Below, piece by piece: positions 29,228 to 35,226 of a stretch of 64,000 bases of DNA. Location of the stretch: NCBI GenBank assembly GCA_025350465.1, contig JANXXU010000027.1:62001-126000 (forward strand). Reading direction: 5' to 3'. Within the stretch, counting starts at the first letter, position 1. Every line of letters starts with the position of its first letter. The notes beneath the pieces are model-generated. The model did not search any database, was not told the origin of the DNA, and saw nothing but the letters and a program-made list of their open reading frames with translations. Source of the DNA: Alphaproteobacteria bacterium. GTDB lineage: Bacteria; Pseudomonadota; Alphaproteobacteria; Micropepsales; Micropepsaceae. The translations under genes and the position numbers were made by a program.

Positions 29228-29980
29228 TTACGCGTTCAAAATGGTGCGACGCAGCAGCCAAAAATACAGCGCATAGGGGAGCACCCGCGCAAACTTGAGA
29301 ATCGCTACGAAGCGCAGGGGATACGCGATCTCGAAGCGTTTCCGGACAAGCCCTTGAATCGTCAAGCGGGCCGCCAGCGGCGCCGTCATCAAAAAGGGCA
29401 TGGGAAAATCATTCTGCGCTGTCAGCGGCGTCTCGACGAAGCCTGGATTGATGACGCTCACCGTCACGCCGTTCAGATCAAGTTCAGGTTTCAAGCATTC
29501 GGCCAAGTTGATCAACGCCGCCTTGGAGGGGCCGTAGGCAGCCGCTTTTGGCAACCCGCGATAGCCGGCAACTGAACCAATCCATGCGATGTGCCCGCCC
29601 TTGCGCTTTAGCATGCGGGGCAGAATCGCGGCGAGGCAATTGACGACGCCGAAATAGTTCGCCGCCATTGTGTGTTTGAAGATTGTCGGATCGAACCTGT
29701 CGGCTGCGACAGGGGTATAGGTTCCGGCTCCCATTATCGCCAGGTCAATGGGCCCCAAGTCGCGCTCAATCTGCTCAACAGTTGCAGAAACAGCGGACTG
29801 GTCGGTGACATCTAAAGGATAGGTCCGAACGCCAGGCTCAAGTTTGTTGAGCTTTTCAACCGAGCGCGCAGAGGCTGCGACGGCGACGCCTAGCGCCGTA
29901 AGCTGAAGCGCAATCTCGCGCCCTATGCCCGTTGAGGCGCCGGTGATCCACACAACCTTCCAAGGAGGATTCTGAGTCAA
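29228..29980 (-). CDS. Short-chain dehydrogenase of the ECF sigma operon
   Basis: SDR of 250 residues, third gene of the rpoE-chrR operon. The cofactor loop is ITGASTGIGREIA, the active-site serine is in AWIGSVAGYRG and Y-x3-K in AAAYGPSKAAL. The C-terminal 40 residues are hydrophobic (FARVLPYALYFWLLRR) and may hold the enzyme at the membrane. The best start is a TTG at 29980 that overlaps the chrR stop (TTGA). An SDR is frequently found with ChrR-controlled lipid-modification genes, so a lipid substrate is likely but not shown. Confidence 0.85.
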   Translation of the reverse strand: MTQNPPWKVVWITGASTGIGREIALQLTALGVAVAASARSVEKLNKLEPGVRTYPLDVTDQSAVSATVEQIERDLGPIDLAIMGAGTYTPVAADRFDPTIFKHTMAANYFGVVNCLAAILPRMLKRKGGHIAWIGSVAGYRGLPKAAAYGPSKAALINLAECLKPELDLNGVTVSVINPGFVETPLTAQNDFPMPFLMTAPLAARLTIQGLVRKRFEIAYPLRFVAILKFARVLPYALYFWLLRRTILNA

Positions 29981-30630
29981 ATGCCGATGAACGGTTGGAT
30001 GAGACGGACGGACCAAGACTTAAATCGCGTCGGCGCTTCCGTCGCGACGAGACAAATGCACGGCCCGCTGTGCTCGACGATGGGCTGATGTTCAATATCA
30101 ACGTCGAGATCGGCCACGTCGCCCTGAGCAAAACGCCCCAGGCGATCATTGTAAGCCCCCGACAGGACGAGCGTGATCTCCTCGCCGCCATGTCCATGTT
30201 CGGGCATAGAGGTTCCCGCTGCGACCCGCACGAGAAACAGCTTGCCGCGCGACATCGCCGGCATTGGAAGATCGAACATGGCCCAACCCGGCGCTTTGGT
30301 CCTCCATTTCAGATCTGCCAGTCGTCGACCATTCAACAGATTGGCAAGGGGCGCAGGGACTTCGCTGGCAATTGGCTCTCTCTTTGGAAAGCGGTGCAGA
30401 GTTGCCCGGTCGAGCTGGTCAAGCGTGCGCCCGCGGCAGTCGTCCGATACTGACGTACCGGCGAGCTCGGCGAATAATGCGCCTCCCACTTCCTCCGCAT
30501 CGTGCGTCGCAGCGCGGCAGACCGGGCACCAGGCGATATGGGCCGAGGCCACAACGCTCAACGCTCCATCGAGCGTACCTGCGACAAAGGCCAAAATGGT
30601 GGCGGAATCCAAATGGTGATGCATGTTCAA
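29977..30630 (-). CDS. chrR: ChrR-type zinc anti-sigma factor
   Basis: Anti-sigma factor of 217 residues that in Rhodobacter sphaeroides holds RpoE inactive until singlet oxygen or organic hydroperoxide is present. The N-terminal ZAS domain has His6, His31, Cys35 and Cys38 (AHIAWCPVC), the same positions as the zinc ligands of the studied protein. A C-terminal cupin domain has the metal-binding EHGHGGEEITLVLSGAY. It overlaps the sigma gene by 4 bp upstream and the SDR gene by 4 bp downstream. Confidence 0.93.
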   Translation of the reverse strand: MNMHHHLDSATILAFVAGTLDGALSVVASAHIAWCPVCRAATHDAEEVGGALFAELAGTSVSDDCRGRTLDQLDRATLHRFPKREPIASEVPAPLANLLNGRRLADLKWRTKAPGWAMFDLPMPAMSRGKLFLVRVAAGTSMPEHGHGGEEITLVLSGAYNDRLGRFAQGDVADLDVDIEHQPIVEHSGPCICLVATEAPTRFKSWSVRLIQPFIGI

Positions 30631-31229
30631 TTGAGTATCTCCAGCGCCCTCCGCAGGTGCCCGTAAGCCAGCCGCATTCTCGACTTTACGGTACCAAGCG
30701 GCAAATTGAGTCGCAGCGCAATTTTGTTGTGCGCCAGGTCATCGACGAAAGAGAGCATCAGCGTTTCCTTCTGCTCTGGCGGAATCTCCGCCAGCGCTTG
30801 CGCCACAAGCCCGGCTTCTTGCTTGCGCGTCACGATCTCATCGCTTCCCGGTTCGCCGGATGGCGCGTCGTAGTCGCCAAGGGCCACAAGCGGCATCAGC
30901 GAGGCACGTCTGTGCCGGTCGATCCACAAATTGCGTGCGATCGTGAAGACCCAAGCCGAGACCGAGCCCCTTGCCGGATCGTAGAGACCTGCCTTGGTCC
31001 ACACGAGGATCATGGTCTCCTGCACCAAATCTTCGGCTTGTTCCGGAGATGCGCCCTTGCGCATCATGAAGTTCTTAAGTCGTGGGGCAAACGCATCGAA
31101 CAACTCGCCGAACGCTCGTCGGTCGAGATCCTGCGCAACGCTTTTCAGCAGGCGCCTTGCAATGTGCTCATCTTCCTGCCGGGCGACTGGGTTATCTGCT
31201 TTCGGCATGACCGATGCCACGGCGCGCAC
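30627..31229 (-). CDS. rpoE: ECF sigma factor, RpoE/ECF11-like
   Basis: Extracytoplasmic-function sigma factor of 200 residues. Region 2 has FDAFAPRLKNFMMRKGAS and EDLVQETMILVWTKAGLYDP. Region 4 contains EIPPEQKETLMLSFVDDLAH and the helix-turn-helix ending LPLGTVKSRMRLAYGHLR. The GTG at 31229 has a GAGGAA site at good distance; an ATG at 31208 is the alternative. Pairing with a ChrR-type partner places it with the singlet-oxygen response sigma factors (ECF11). A candidate own-type promoter lies upstream, consistent with autoregulation. Confidence 0.92.
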   Translation of the reverse strand: MRAVASVMPKADNPVARQEDEHIARRLLKSVAQDLDRRAFGELFDAFAPRLKNFMMRKGASPEQAEDLVQETMILVWTKAGLYDPARGSVSAWVFTIARNLWIDRHRRASLMPLVALGDYDAPSGEPGSDEIVTRKQEAGLVAQALAEIPPEQKETLMLSFVDDLAHNKIALRLNLPLGTVKSRMRLAYGHLRRALEILN

Positions 31230-31253: not shown

Positions 31254-31283
31254 ATCCTACGGAACCGGGCCTGAGTTGGATCA
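31254..31283 (-). promoter_or_regulatory. Predicted ECF-sigma promoter of rpoE-chrR-SDR
   Basis: On the minus strand TGATCC (31283-31278) is followed after 18 bp by TAGGAT (31259-31254), preceded by CG. TGATCC is the -35 reported for RpoE/ECF11 targets. The predicted start lies some 15-20 bp before the ribosome site of rpoE. Confidence 0.6.
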
Positions 31284-31322
31284 CCGACGGTGCCGAGCCC
31301 GGTTAAGCATTTTTTTCTCGAT

Positions 31323-31352
31323 TGATCCAACGGCCATAAGGGTGCGTAGCAA
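31323..31352 (+). promoter_or_regulatory. Predicted ECF-sigma promoter of the lipid-modification operon
   Basis: TGATCC (31323-31328) and TAGCAA (31347-31352) stand 18 bp apart, the same spacing and the same CGTAG context as the divergent promoter 40 bp away. The leader before the TTG start at 31379 would be about 20 nt. Recognition by the adjacent sigma factor is inferred. Confidence 0.6.
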
Positions 31353-31378: not shown

Positions 31379-32725
31379 TTGTCACACCTTAACATTGCTG
31401 TGGTCGGTTCCGGAATTTCCGGATTATCCGCAGCATGGCTGCTGTCGCAACGGCATAACGTCACACTGTTGGAGGCAGATGACCGTATCGGTGGACACAC
31501 GCACACGGTCGACGTCTGCGTCGATGGTGCCGCAATGGCCGTCGACACCGGCTTCATCGTCTATAACCGCGCCACCTATCCAAACCTGAGCGCGCTGTTC
31601 GACTATTTGAATGTGCCCACGGCTCCCTCCCACATGGGCTTTGCCGTGTCGCTCGCGGGCGGTCGCACCGAGTATTCGGGCAACAGCGCCCTTGGGATGC
31701 TGGGGACCTGGACAAATTTCGTCGACCCAGGTCACTGGCGCATGCTGCGCGACATCGCTCGCTTCTTCCGCACGGCGGCGAAGCACGCCGAGGCGCTAGG
31801 CGACCAGGTAACGCTTGGGCAATTCATCGCCGCTCAGGGTTATTCGCAGGATTTCCTCGACCGTCACCTCTTACCGTGCGTCGGCGCCATCTGGTCGTCG
31901 CCGCCCCGCCAGATGTTGGATTATCCAGCGAGCGCCTTCCTGAGATTCTTCGATAATCACGGCCTGTTGAAGTTCATCAACCGACCGCAATGGCGAACGG
32001 TTATCGGCGGCTCGCGCAAATACGTGCAGCAACTTTTCGCCGACGCGCCCATGCGCGCCTTGACCAATTGTCGCGTAACCTCGATCAAACGCTCACGAGA
32101 TAGCGTTACGCTGCATGCTCAGAACGGTTTTCACCAGACGTTCGATCAAGTCGTTGTTGCCGCCCACGCCGACCAAGCGCTCGCTATGCTAGACGAGCCC
32201 AGTCTGGACGAGCGCCGCTACCTCCAGGCGTTCCGTTACACACGCAATCGCGCCGTGCTTCACCGTGACGAGACATTCATGCCGCGCAACCGCTGGCTTT
32301 GGTCGAGTTGGAATTATCTATCAGACTCGGGCGCCGACACCGCCGCCTCAACGATCACCTATTGGATGAACGCGCTTCAACCTCTTCCCACGAAGACAAA
32401 TTATTTCGTCACCCTCAACCCGCATCGCGAGCCGGCGGACGGCACGATTGACCGCGATTTGTCTTACGATCACCCGATCTTCTCGCCCGAGACCGGGCGC
32501 GTGCAACGTGAGCTTTGGTCGCTGCAAGGTCGTCGACGGACTTGGTTTTGCGGTGCCCATTTCGGTGCAGGATTTCACGAAGACGGCTTACAAGCGGGTC
32601 TGGCGGTCGCCGAACAGCTGGGCTCCGTCAAGCGGCCGTGGACCCTCACCGCTCCATCGAACCGCATTCACGTGGCGTCGAGACCGTCTTTGTCTAGGCC
32701 TGTATTGGTCGAGGCCGCGGAATGA
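31379..32725 (+). CDS. FAD-dependent amine-oxidase-family oxidoreductase
   Basis: Flavoprotein of 448 residues, first gene of the lipid operon. The FAD loop VVGSGISGLSAAWLL lies at the very N-terminus, followed by EADDRIGGHTHTVDV. C-terminal WFCGAHFGAGFHEDGLQAG closes the FAD site. The start is a TTG at 31379 with GAGG upstream; the nearby ATG (31363) is in another frame. Homologues accompany ChrR-type sigma systems and cyclopropane-fatty-acid genes and are thought to act on fatty acyl chains; the reaction is not settled from sequence. Confidence 0.88.
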   Translation: MSHLNIAVVGSGISGLSAAWLLSQRHNVTLLEADDRIGGHTHTVDVCVDGAAMAVDTGFIVYNRATYPNLSALFDYLNVPTAPSHMGFAVSLAGGRTEYSGNSALGMLGTWTNFVDPGHWRMLRDIARFFRTAAKHAEALGDQVTLGQFIAAQGYSQDFLDRHLLPCVGAIWSSPPRQMLDYPASAFLRFFDNHGLLKFINRPQWRTVIGGSRKYVQQLFADAPMRALTNCRVTSIKRSRDSVTLHAQNGFHQTFDQVVVAAHADQALAMLDEPSLDERRYLQAFRYTRNRAVLHRDETFMPRNRWLWSSWNYLSDSGADTAASTITYWMNALQPLPTKTNYFVTLNPHREPADGTIDRDLSYDHPIFSPETGRVQRELWSLQGRRRTWFCGAHFGAGFHEDGLQAGLAVAEQLGSVKRPWTLTAPSNRIHVASRPSLSRPVLVEAAE

Positions 32726-33501
32726 AGGGGCCTCTATCATGCCTCTATCACGGAGAGGTCGGTCACCGGCGCCTAGCGCCGGTGCAGCATGAATTGCGCT
32801 ACAGTGTCTACAATCTCTTTGCCAACATCGATGAACTGCCGCAGCTCGACCGGCGCTTGCGCCTATTCAGTTACAACCGCTTTAATTTCTTCTCCATCGC
32901 CGATCGCGATCACGGACCGGGCGACGGCACCGCGATCCGCGACCATATTTGGTCGCTCGTTAGGGCGACCGAGGCGGGCGCCGACGCTTCTCGCGTGTTC
33001 ATGCTCTGCTATCCCCGCGTGCTGGGCTACGTTTTCAATCCGCTGACGGTCTATTACGCTTTCGATCGCCAGGGCAGGCTTCGTTTGATGATCTACGAGG
33101 TCAACAACACGTTCGGCGAGCGCCACTCCTATGTGATTCCGACCGACGACAGCTCGCATCAGTCTTGCATCAAGAAATTGTATGTGTCGCCGTTCAACAA
33201 GGTGGAAGGCCACTACGACTTCAACATTCGGATACCCGATGACGAGCTCGCACTCGGCATAGCGTTGACCACACCCGATGGGCCGCGCATAAGCGCCTGG
33301 TTTTCCGGATCGCGGATTGCGCTGACCGATCGCGCTTTGCTTCACTCTTTTCTGGGTCTGCCGCTGCTGCCACTCAAAATTATCGGCGGCATACATTGGG
33401 AAGCAGCAAAGCTATGGCTCAAAGGCATGCGTCCGGTGACGCGGCCTGTGCCGCCCACACCAAGCACCTCGTTTGCCAAAACGGCTAAAGGCGTCAAATG
33501 A
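32722..33501 (+). CDS. DUF1365 protein
   Basis: 259-residue protein of the DUF1365 family, which nearly always lies between an FAD oxidoreductase like the one upstream and a cyclopropane-fatty-acid synthase. Conserved parts are SCLYHGEVGHRRLAPVQHEL, RVFMLCYPRVLGYVFNPLTV, EVNNTFGERHSYVIP and YVSPFNKVEGHYDFNI. No signal peptide or TM helix is evident. Start and stop overlap both neighbours by 4 bp. The function is unknown, but the fixed context implies a shared role in fatty acyl modification. Confidence 0.92.
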   Translation: MKGPLSCLYHGEVGHRRLAPVQHELRYSVYNLFANIDELPQLDRRLRLFSYNRFNFFSIADRDHGPGDGTAIRDHIWSLVRATEAGADASRVFMLCYPRVLGYVFNPLTVYYAFDRQGRLRLMIYEVNNTFGERHSYVIPTDDSSHQSCIKKLYVSPFNKVEGHYDFNIRIPDDELALGIALTTPDGPRISAWFSGSRIALTDRALLHSFLGLPLLPLKIIGGIHWEAAKLWLKGMRPVTRPVPPTPSTSFAKTAKGVK

Positions 33502-34706
33502 GTGCGACAATCATCGCAAGTCGATATGGCGCGGTCGACCGCCTAATCCTCGCCATCGCGCGTCGCGCAATAGGCGACGGTTTTGCCGGTCATCTCATAC
33601 TCGTCCTGCCATCCGGCCGCGCGATCAAACTTGGCCGTGCCTTGCAGGAACCTGCCGCCGAAATTCACCTCAGATCCTACCAGGCCGTCTGGGCATCTAT
33701 CCGTCGCGCTTCATTAGGTCTGTGCGAATCCTACGTCGAGGGCCATTGGGACAGCCCCGACCCCACTCGGGTATTTGCCTTCCTCCTGGCCAACAGCACG
33801 AAGCTCGACCGCGCAGCCCCGTTCGCCTCGCTCGGAAACTTGCTCGACCGGCTTTGGCATTTCCGGCGAAGCAACAGCCGCAGCGGTTCCAAGCGCAACA
33901 TCGAAGCACACTACGATCTCGGTAACCAATTCTACAAGCTCTGGCTCGATGACACGATGACATACTCGGCGGCCTGGTTCGGCGGCGGAGCGCCGAGCCT
34001 TGAAGCAGCTCAGAACGCGAAATATCAACTAGTGCTCAATTCACTCGGCATAGCCCGCGGCCATAGTCTCCTAGAAATAGGATGCGGTTGGGGTGGTCTG
34101 GCGGACGCAGCAGCCGATATTGGCGTCGAGGTCACCGGCATAACCCTGTCCGAGGAACAGTTGGCGTTTGCGAGGAAGCGCTTGGGCAGTAGGGCCGATC
34201 TTCGTCTGCAGGACTATCGCGACGTGCAGGGCGAATTCGACCGCATCGCCTCCATCGAAATGATCGAAGCGGTGGGCGAGGCGTATTGGCCGAGTTACTT
34301 CCGCACGCTCTCCGATCGGCTCAAACCGGGCGGCATCGCCGCGATCCAAGCCATCACGATCGATCCAGGCTTATTTCAGCTCTATCGCCGCAGCGTCGAC
34401 TTCATTCAGCGCCACATCTTTCCAGGTGGCATGTTACCAACAACGGATATTCTTAAGCGCCAGGCCGAAGCAGTTGGGCTCATCTATGAGCCAGTGCTGA
34501 GTTTCGGAAAGGACTACGAGCGGACCCTTCTGATCTGGCGCGAACGTTTCGAAGCAGCTTGGCCAAAGATTGCGGCACTTGGATTCGACGAGCGCTTCCG
34601 CCGCAAGTGGCTACTTTATCTGATCTACTGCGAAGAAGGGTTTCGCGCCCGCACTATCGATGTCGGATTGTACCGGCTGACGAAGCCTTGTCGAATGGCC
34701 GGATAG
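33498..34706 (+). CDS. Cyclopropane-fatty-acid-type SAM methyltransferase
   Basis: SAM-dependent enzyme of 402 residues that methylates unsaturated acyl chains of membrane phospholipids. YDLGNQFYKLWLDDTMTYSA is the family signature, LLEIGCGWGGLA near residues 190-200 binds SAM, and SIEMIEAVGEAYWPSYF contains the conserved active-site segment. In ChrR-regulated operons such enzymes make cyclopropane or furan-type acyl chains that respond to singlet oxygen; which one is made here cannot be told. It ends the operon and converges with tspO. Confidence 0.92.
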   Translation: MSATIIASRYGAVDRLILAIARRAIGDGFAGHLILVLPSGRAIKLGRALQEPAAEIHLRSYQAVWASIRRASLGLCESYVEGHWDSPDPTRVFAFLLANSTKLDRAAPFASLGNLLDRLWHFRRSNSRSGSKRNIEAHYDLGNQFYKLWLDDTMTYSAAWFGGGAPSLEAAQNAKYQLVLNSLGIARGHSLLEIGCGWGGLADAAADIGVEVTGITLSEEQLAFARKRLGSRADLRLQDYRDVQGEFDRIASIEMIEAVGEAYWPSYFRTLSDRLKPGGIAAIQAITIDPGLFQLYRRSVDFIQRHIFPGGMLPTTDILKRQAEAVGLIYEPVLSFGKDYERTLLIWRERFEAAWPKIAALGFDERFRRKWLLYLIYCEEGFRARTIDVGLYRLTKPCRMAG

Positions 34707-34746: not shown

Positions 34747-35226
34747 TCACTTCGCTGTGGATGGATTGAGACGCCAGATGGCGAAATTGAGCGCCGCCGC
34801 AAATGTGACCCATGCGAGGTAAGGCAAGAGTAGCGACGCTGCCACGGCGTTAATGGGATAGAAGAGCAGCATCGTTGCGACGATTGATAGCCAAACTAGC
34901 ACGATGTTCAGGAAAGCGAGATTTGGACGGTGCAGGCCGAAGAAAATGGGCGTCCAGGCTGCGTTCAGGACAAGCTGCAGTCCATATACCGCGAGCGGCA
35001 GCGTGGCACCGGCGAAGCCGGCCTCCCGCCAAACCAGCCAACCGGAAACCGCAATCATGACGTACAGAATCGTCCAAACAGGCGCGAAGAGCCGGTTCGG
35101 CGGTCGCCAAGATGGTTTGGCTAGTCGCTCGTACCAATCACCGGGTCGAAAAAATGTCCCGGCGAGGGCCGCTAAAAAACAAGCGACGATGAACCCAAGA
35201 AGTGCAACTAGCGAGGAAGCGTCCAT
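34747..35226 (-). CDS. tspO: TspO/MBR-family membrane protein
   Basis: Five-helix membrane protein of 159 residues, homologous to bacterial TspO, which binds tetrapyrroles and affects oxygen- and light-regulated genes in Rhodobacter. Typical segments are LAKPSWRPPNRLFAPVWTIL, NAAWTPIFFGLHRPN and LLLPYLAWVTFAAALNFAIW. It converges on the fatty-acid synthase gene with a 40-bp gap, so it is a separate unit. The neighbourhood of a singlet-oxygen-type regulator suggests handling of photoreactive porphyrins; this is inference. Confidence 0.93.
   Translation of the reverse strand: MDASSLVALLGFIVACFLAALAGTFFRPGDWYERLAKPSWRPPNRLFAPVWTILYVMIAVSGWLVWREAGFAGATLPLAVYGLQLVLNAAWTPIFFGLHRPNLAFLNIVLVWLSIVATMLLFYPINAVAASLLLPYLAWVTFAAALNFAIWRLNPSTAK

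Follow-up and report, generated by a model that had tools for sequence, protein, structure and literature searches.

A putative self-contained RpoE-ChrR (ECF11) stress switch with opposed promoters for the sigma factor and a furan-fatty-acid operon in a member of the Micropepsaceae

In Rhodobacter sphaeroides, the sigma factor RpoE is held by ChrR. Proteolysis of ChrR is promoted by singlet oxygen, and RpoE-dependent furan-fatty-acid genes are needed for this turnover (PMC6852236, PMC7074977). The genes RSP_1090/91 lie directly upstream of rpoE-chrR in this species and in many Rhodobacteraceae, and RSP_1087-1091 are RpoE-dependent (PMC7074977). The furan fatty acid is made by UfaD, UfaO (a DUF1365 protein) and UfaM, which are encoded in the order RPA2571-2569 in Rhodopseudomonas palustris (PMC7380195). 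In Stenotrophomonas maltophilia, the nine-gene lipid cluster smlt2375-smlt2367 is divergent from rpoEc-chrR-chrA and was found to be sigma-dependent by RNA-seq, and ChrA, an oxidoreductase whose gene follows chrR, contributes to the expression of its own operon (PMC11832516). The published promoter of RpoE-ChrR (ECF11) systems is TGATCC-N16-CGTA, as seen in the binding sites of Pseudomonas syringae (PMC5507510) and in Shewanella oneidensis (PMC4336711).

We analysed a stretch of 64,000 nucleotides (hereafter the window) from an alphaproteobacterium of the family Micropepsaceae (assembly GCA_025350465.1, contig JANXXU010000027.1, positions 62,001 to 126,000). We propose, with a probability of roughly 0.88, that this window carries a self-contained ECF11 (RpoE-ChrR) stress switch that drives rpoE-chrR-SDR and ufaD-ufaO-ufaM from two opposed promoters. 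The arrangement itself is not new, as it is already known from R. sphaeroides and S. maltophilia. The features of the locus are as follows.

29228..30016, minus strand: short-chain dehydrogenase/reductase (SDR), third gene of the rpoE operon; adh_short; start uncertain, the ORF overlaps chrR
29977..30630, minus strand: chrR, zinc anti-sigma factor with a cupin-like domain, 217 aa; 4-bp overlap with rpoE
30627..31229, minus strand: rpoE-like ECF sigma factor, 200 aa; GTG start with AGAGGA upstream; sigma-70 regions 2 and 4
31258..31283, minus strand: putative ECF11-type promoter of rpoE-chrR-SDR; -35 TGATCC at 31278-31283, 16-bp spacer, -10 CGTA at 31258-31261
31323..31348, plus strand: putative ECF11-type promoter of ufaD-ufaO-ufaM; -35 TGATCC at 31323-31328, 16-bp spacer, -10 CGTA at 31345-31348
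31379..32725, plus strand: ufaD-like FAD protein, 448 aa; TTG start with GAGG upstream; Amino_oxidase/NAD_binding_8
32722..33501, plus strand: ufaO-like DUF1365 protein, 259 aa; PF07103, 250.8 bits; 4-bp overlap with ufaD
33498..34706, plus strand: ufaM-like SAM methyltransferase, 402 aa; PF02353, 261.1 bits; 4-bp overlap with ufaO

The start codons of the sigma gene and of the FAD-protein gene are 149 bp apart, and both opposed promoters fall inside this gap. The minus-strand promoter reads TGATCCAACTCAGGCCCGGTTCCGTAGGAT (TGATCC-AACTCAGGCCCGGTTC-CGTA-GGAT) and the plus-strand promoter reads TGATCCAACGGCCATAAGGGTGCGTAGCAA (TGATCC-AACGGCCATAAGGGTG-CGTA-GCAA). An earlier sequence-only reading had placed two TGATCC sites here, one per strand and with -35 boxes about 40 bp apart; both are present, and the outer ends of the boxes (31283 and 31323) are separated by 39 bp. 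The same reading took TAG, after 18 bp, as the shared -10 element. The conserved -10 is instead CGTA, and TAG is the TA that ends CGTA followed by a variable base: in a search that required CGTA, the following base was G in just 11 of 47 rpoE-side and 10 of 33 lipid-side sites. Within the window, TGATCC-N18-TAG matched twice against 0.20 expected, a count reached in one of 100 shuffles. As a genome-wide query, which had been suggested as a check, it performed poorly: spacers of 17-19 bp returned 26 matches against 13 in the reversed control, mostly noise. We replaced TGATCC-N17..19-TAG with TGATCC-N16-CGTA.

The sigma factor has both region 2 and region 4, homologous to those of R. sphaeroides RpoE, which is its best PDB match (2q1z_A, E=3.5e-36), and the autoregulatory promoter TGATCC-N16-CGTA expected of an ECF11 member is found upstream of its gene. 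ChrR scored 161.6 bits against TIGR02451 (cut-off 124.5), and its best solved relative is R. sphaeroides ChrR (2z2s_B, E=2.5e-42). All eight of its zinc ligands, His/His/Cys/Cys in the anti-sigma domain and His/His/Glu/His in the cupin domain, align with their R. sphaeroides counterparts, and the HxHxxxE...H motif of the cupin site is intact. It had been proposed that His6, His31, Cys35 and Cys38 occupy the same positions as in R. sphaeroides. These residues align in any case, but the exact numbering holds only if translation starts at the TTG at 30630. As for the SDR, a counterpart of 75% identity occupies the same position in the nearest relative (L039), and an SDR gene likewise follows chrR immediately in L129 and L181.

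Comparison with the described systems revealed what is shared and what differs. In R. sphaeroides, rpoE-chrR (RSP_1092-1093) and the upstream RSP_1091-1087 likewise comprise an ECF11 sigma factor, ChrR, a TGATCC-type promoter and an RpoE-dependent ufaD-ufaO operon (PMC7074977, PMC7380195). There, however, ufaM (RSP_2144) is found at a separate locus beside phrA and the SDR gene belongs to the lipid operon, whereas in the window ufaM is inside the lipid operon and the SDR gene follows chrR. In S. maltophilia, a sigma factor, ChrR and an NAD(P)-binding oxidoreductase also share one operon that is divergent from a membrane-lipid cluster; that system belongs to a gammaproteobacterium, has a cluster of nine genes rather than three and responds to superoxide. 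In its position after chrR, the SDR gene of the window corresponds to chrA of S. maltophilia. The three lipid genes have the same order as RPA2571-2569 of R. palustris. Meanwhile, S. oneidensis rpoE2-chrR (SO_1986-1985) with SO_1987 and P. syringae PSPTO_1043/1042 have the same TGATCC...CGTA promoter, mapped or bound, and are autoregulated (PMC4336711, PMC5507510), but their neighbouring and target genes differ from those of the window and their lipid genes are located elsewhere. A search of the window's genome (98% complete) at E<=0.001 gave no match to the classical photolyase family PF03441, so this usual core target seems absent. ECF11 membership does not require a photolyase, as the full core was found in 45 of 73 species (PMC5507510).

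We surveyed the conservation of the promoter pair in loci collected by sigma similarity from relatives, the order and the class; the survey is biased to loci resembling the window's sigma factor, and the related genomes are not independent. A divergent locus was counted when a homologue of ufaD, ufaO or ufaM (practically ufaD or ufaO) started 100-450 bp from the matched sigma start, and the motif allowed TGATCC or TGATCT, with CGTA required. Of 35 such loci, 32 carried both promoters (21 of ufaD type, 11 of ufaO type), two had one promoter and one had none. Including the window, an ECF11-type site was found upstream of rpoE at 47 loci and upstream of the divergent ufa gene at 33. The nearest relative, a Rhodobiaceae MAG with 69% sigma identity, has all six genes of the window's locus as well as both promoters, with 38 bp between the boxes. 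Across loci the gap between the -35 boxes ranged from 1 to 111 bp while the boxes were kept, so the two promoters are independent elements rather than parts of one composite site of fixed geometry. In ten loci from genomes of the family (L092, L096, L097, L098, L100, L102, L103, L105, L106 and L122), the divergent gene is ufaO and the boxes are 1-6 bp apart. Judging from typical polymerase footprints, two polymerases could hardly bind simultaneously at such ufaO-type loci and should compete, and at the 39-bp gap of the window both could probably bind together. The helical phasing of the gap gave R=0.33 with a nominal p=0.03 over 32 related loci, which we do not treat as real.

In the circuit that we propose, the promoters, genes, residues and conservation come from the data above, and the dependence on the sigma factor, the signal, the lipid product and the feedback are modelled on the relatives. 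At rest, the sigma factor would be held by ChrR through its zinc anti-sigma domain, next to a cupin-like sensor domain. Singlet oxygen or organic hydroperoxides would lead to the loss or inactivation of ChrR and free the sigma factor, which would take RNA polymerase to both TGATCC-N16-CGTA promoters, so that transcription of both rpoE-chrR-SDR and ufaD-ufaO-ufaM begins. The products of the lipid operon may then methylate, desaturate and oxidise membrane acyl chains, yielding furan fatty acid. If ChrR turnover follows the R. sphaeroides mechanism, the shared control region would thus turn on three things together: the sigma factor, ChrR as its inhibitor, and the lipid pathway that helps to remove ChrR. 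A single intergenic region would then jointly drive a positive arm, made up of the sigma factor and furan lipid, and a negative arm, made up of ChrR. The equivalent switch of S. maltophilia protects against superoxide and not singlet oxygen (PMC11832516), so the signal here may differ.

That one sigma factor drives both sides, as the sequence-only reading proposed, is well supported by the promoter match, the ChrR-type pair, the conservation in 32 of 35 loci and the co-regulation measured in relatives, where it has already been described. A coincidental match of the boxes, with the genes transcribed by the housekeeping sigma factor, deserves virtually no weight. Ten specified bases would indeed be expected to occur by chance about 6 times in a genome of such base composition, yet the window's two sites are the sole exact matches in its 4,063,295 bases, and the pair is conserved across many genomes. 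In the 149-bp gap, each strand is expected to hold about 1e-4 occurrences, so the presence of two opposed copies at just this place is not due to chance. A more serious alternative is that both sites are served mainly by a paralogous sigma factor, sigma2, or by both sigma factors, in which case the locus would be a shared target and not a self-contained autoregulatory loop. The genome encodes a second rpoE-chrR pair (L117:3926-5163; G000:C19:61425-62662), which is 42% identical, resembles the first in the helix of region 4.2 (LPLGTVKSRLRLAFGRLRK versus LPLGTVKSRMRLAYGHLRR) and could recognise the same promoters; the reading with a single sigma factor is thus probable rather than certain. No TGATCC-N16-CGTA was found upstream of this pair, a result that can be read in favour of the shared target but that also suggests a different or constitutive promoter for sigma2. 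Since the paired sites adjoin an rpoE-chrR pair in nearly all loci with a divergent ufa gene, we consider the shared-target explanation unlikely. The second pair is followed by an asparaginase-like gene.

The product of the lipid operon also has to be weighed. The operon unites ufaD (FAD), ufaO (DUF1365) and ufaM (CMAS-type methyltransferase), the combination that defines a Ufa operon, whose product is 9M5-FuFA formed via 11Me-12t-18:1, and RPA2571-2569 are sufficient for this product (PMC7380195). The methyltransferase is the genome's sole strong CMAS protein. It scores highest against cyclopropane synthase models, which would fit an operon making cyclopropane fatty acids for membrane hardening, unrelated to furan lipids or ChrR turnover. 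Against this stand its residues and its neighbours. The bicarbonate ligands of cyclopropane synthase are Glu239, His266 and Tyr317 in E. coli numbering (PMC11387697). A residue check against 6bqc revealed that Glu239 and Tyr317 are kept in the window's protein, but His266 is replaced by Gln and Cys139 by Ala. The Gln is common to nine of nine UfaM-type proteins compared (the window's and eight relatives), and the Cys139 position is Ala or Ser in all eight that were readable there. These residues would fit an enzyme that adds methyl branches rather than one that forms cyclopropane rings. So would the context, in which ufaD and ufaO adjoin the methyltransferase gene in a single operon of overlapping genes; it has the same neighbours in R. 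palustris. Cyclopropanation is therefore improbable, and the divergent operon is best read as a complete furan-fatty-acid pathway, ufaD-ufaO-ufaM.

A TspO/MBR gene (34747-35226, minus strand) lies beyond the last ufa gene and points towards it, and a TspO-like gene is also found near chrR in L171.

These findings confirm from raw sequence a conserved design in which a stress sigma factor and lipid enzymes tied to the destruction of its inhibitor share one short control region, and they add numbers to it: both promoters in 32 of 35 loci, spaced 1-111 bp apart. The window is a compact case, with nearly all recognisable targets at one locus, and would be useful for testing the feedback of furan lipids on ChrR. 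What sets it apart from the known cases is the distribution of the genes, namely ufaM within the lipid operon, the SDR after chrR and the missing PF03441 match.

Searches with looser forms of the promoter were of uneven value. Allowing one mismatch in TGATCC-N16-CGTA gave 211 matches against 69 in the control, and no usable regulon list. The relaxed TGATCYR form gave four matches in the genome against one in the reversed control. A TGATCT-N16-CGTA match at L151:1501-1526 (G000:C19:19343-19368) lies within the coding sequence of an M48 peptidase, and we take it as probably chance.

The genome encodes three ChrR-family proteins and two RpoE-like sigma factors at this similarity. The third ChrR gene is an orphan with no neighbouring sigma gene.

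L152:1501-2233 (G000:C40:15906-16638): orphan ChrR gene and its putative promoter, divergent from a cysteine synthase gene

This gene (L152:1580-2233) passed the TIGR02451 cut-off, and its product scored 124 bits against the window's ChrR and 86 bits against ChrR2. Its candidate promoter, TGATCT-N16-CGTA at G000:C40:15906-15931, lies 54 bp upstream of the likely start and is one of two further TGATCYR-N15-CGTA matches; for the 100 bp preceding any one gene, the expected number of sites of this form is about 6e-5. Two further orphan chrR genes were found in other alphaproteobacteria, L170 (G434:C332) and L176 (G187:C43), with no adjacent sigma gene and with rpoE elsewhere in both genomes. There, an exact TGATCC-N16-CGTA precedes the matched chrR start by 86 and 119 bp, respectively.

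The orphan ChrR under the same promoter is an unexpected lead, as it may add another inhibitor to the loop. We see evenly balanced odds that the window's sigma factor controls this second, unlinked anti-sigma factor. Since orphan chrR genes occur under the same promoter in three genomes, ECF11 circuits may rely on a pair of anti-sigma factors, each possibly responding to its own signal. Our literature search found no account of such orphan ChrR genes, the key survey (Dufour 2008) being outside its reach. The promoter site of L170 overlaps the end of an upstream ORF. In both L170 and L176, chrR is preceded by ORFs of similar sequence and an SDR gene lies downstream of it.
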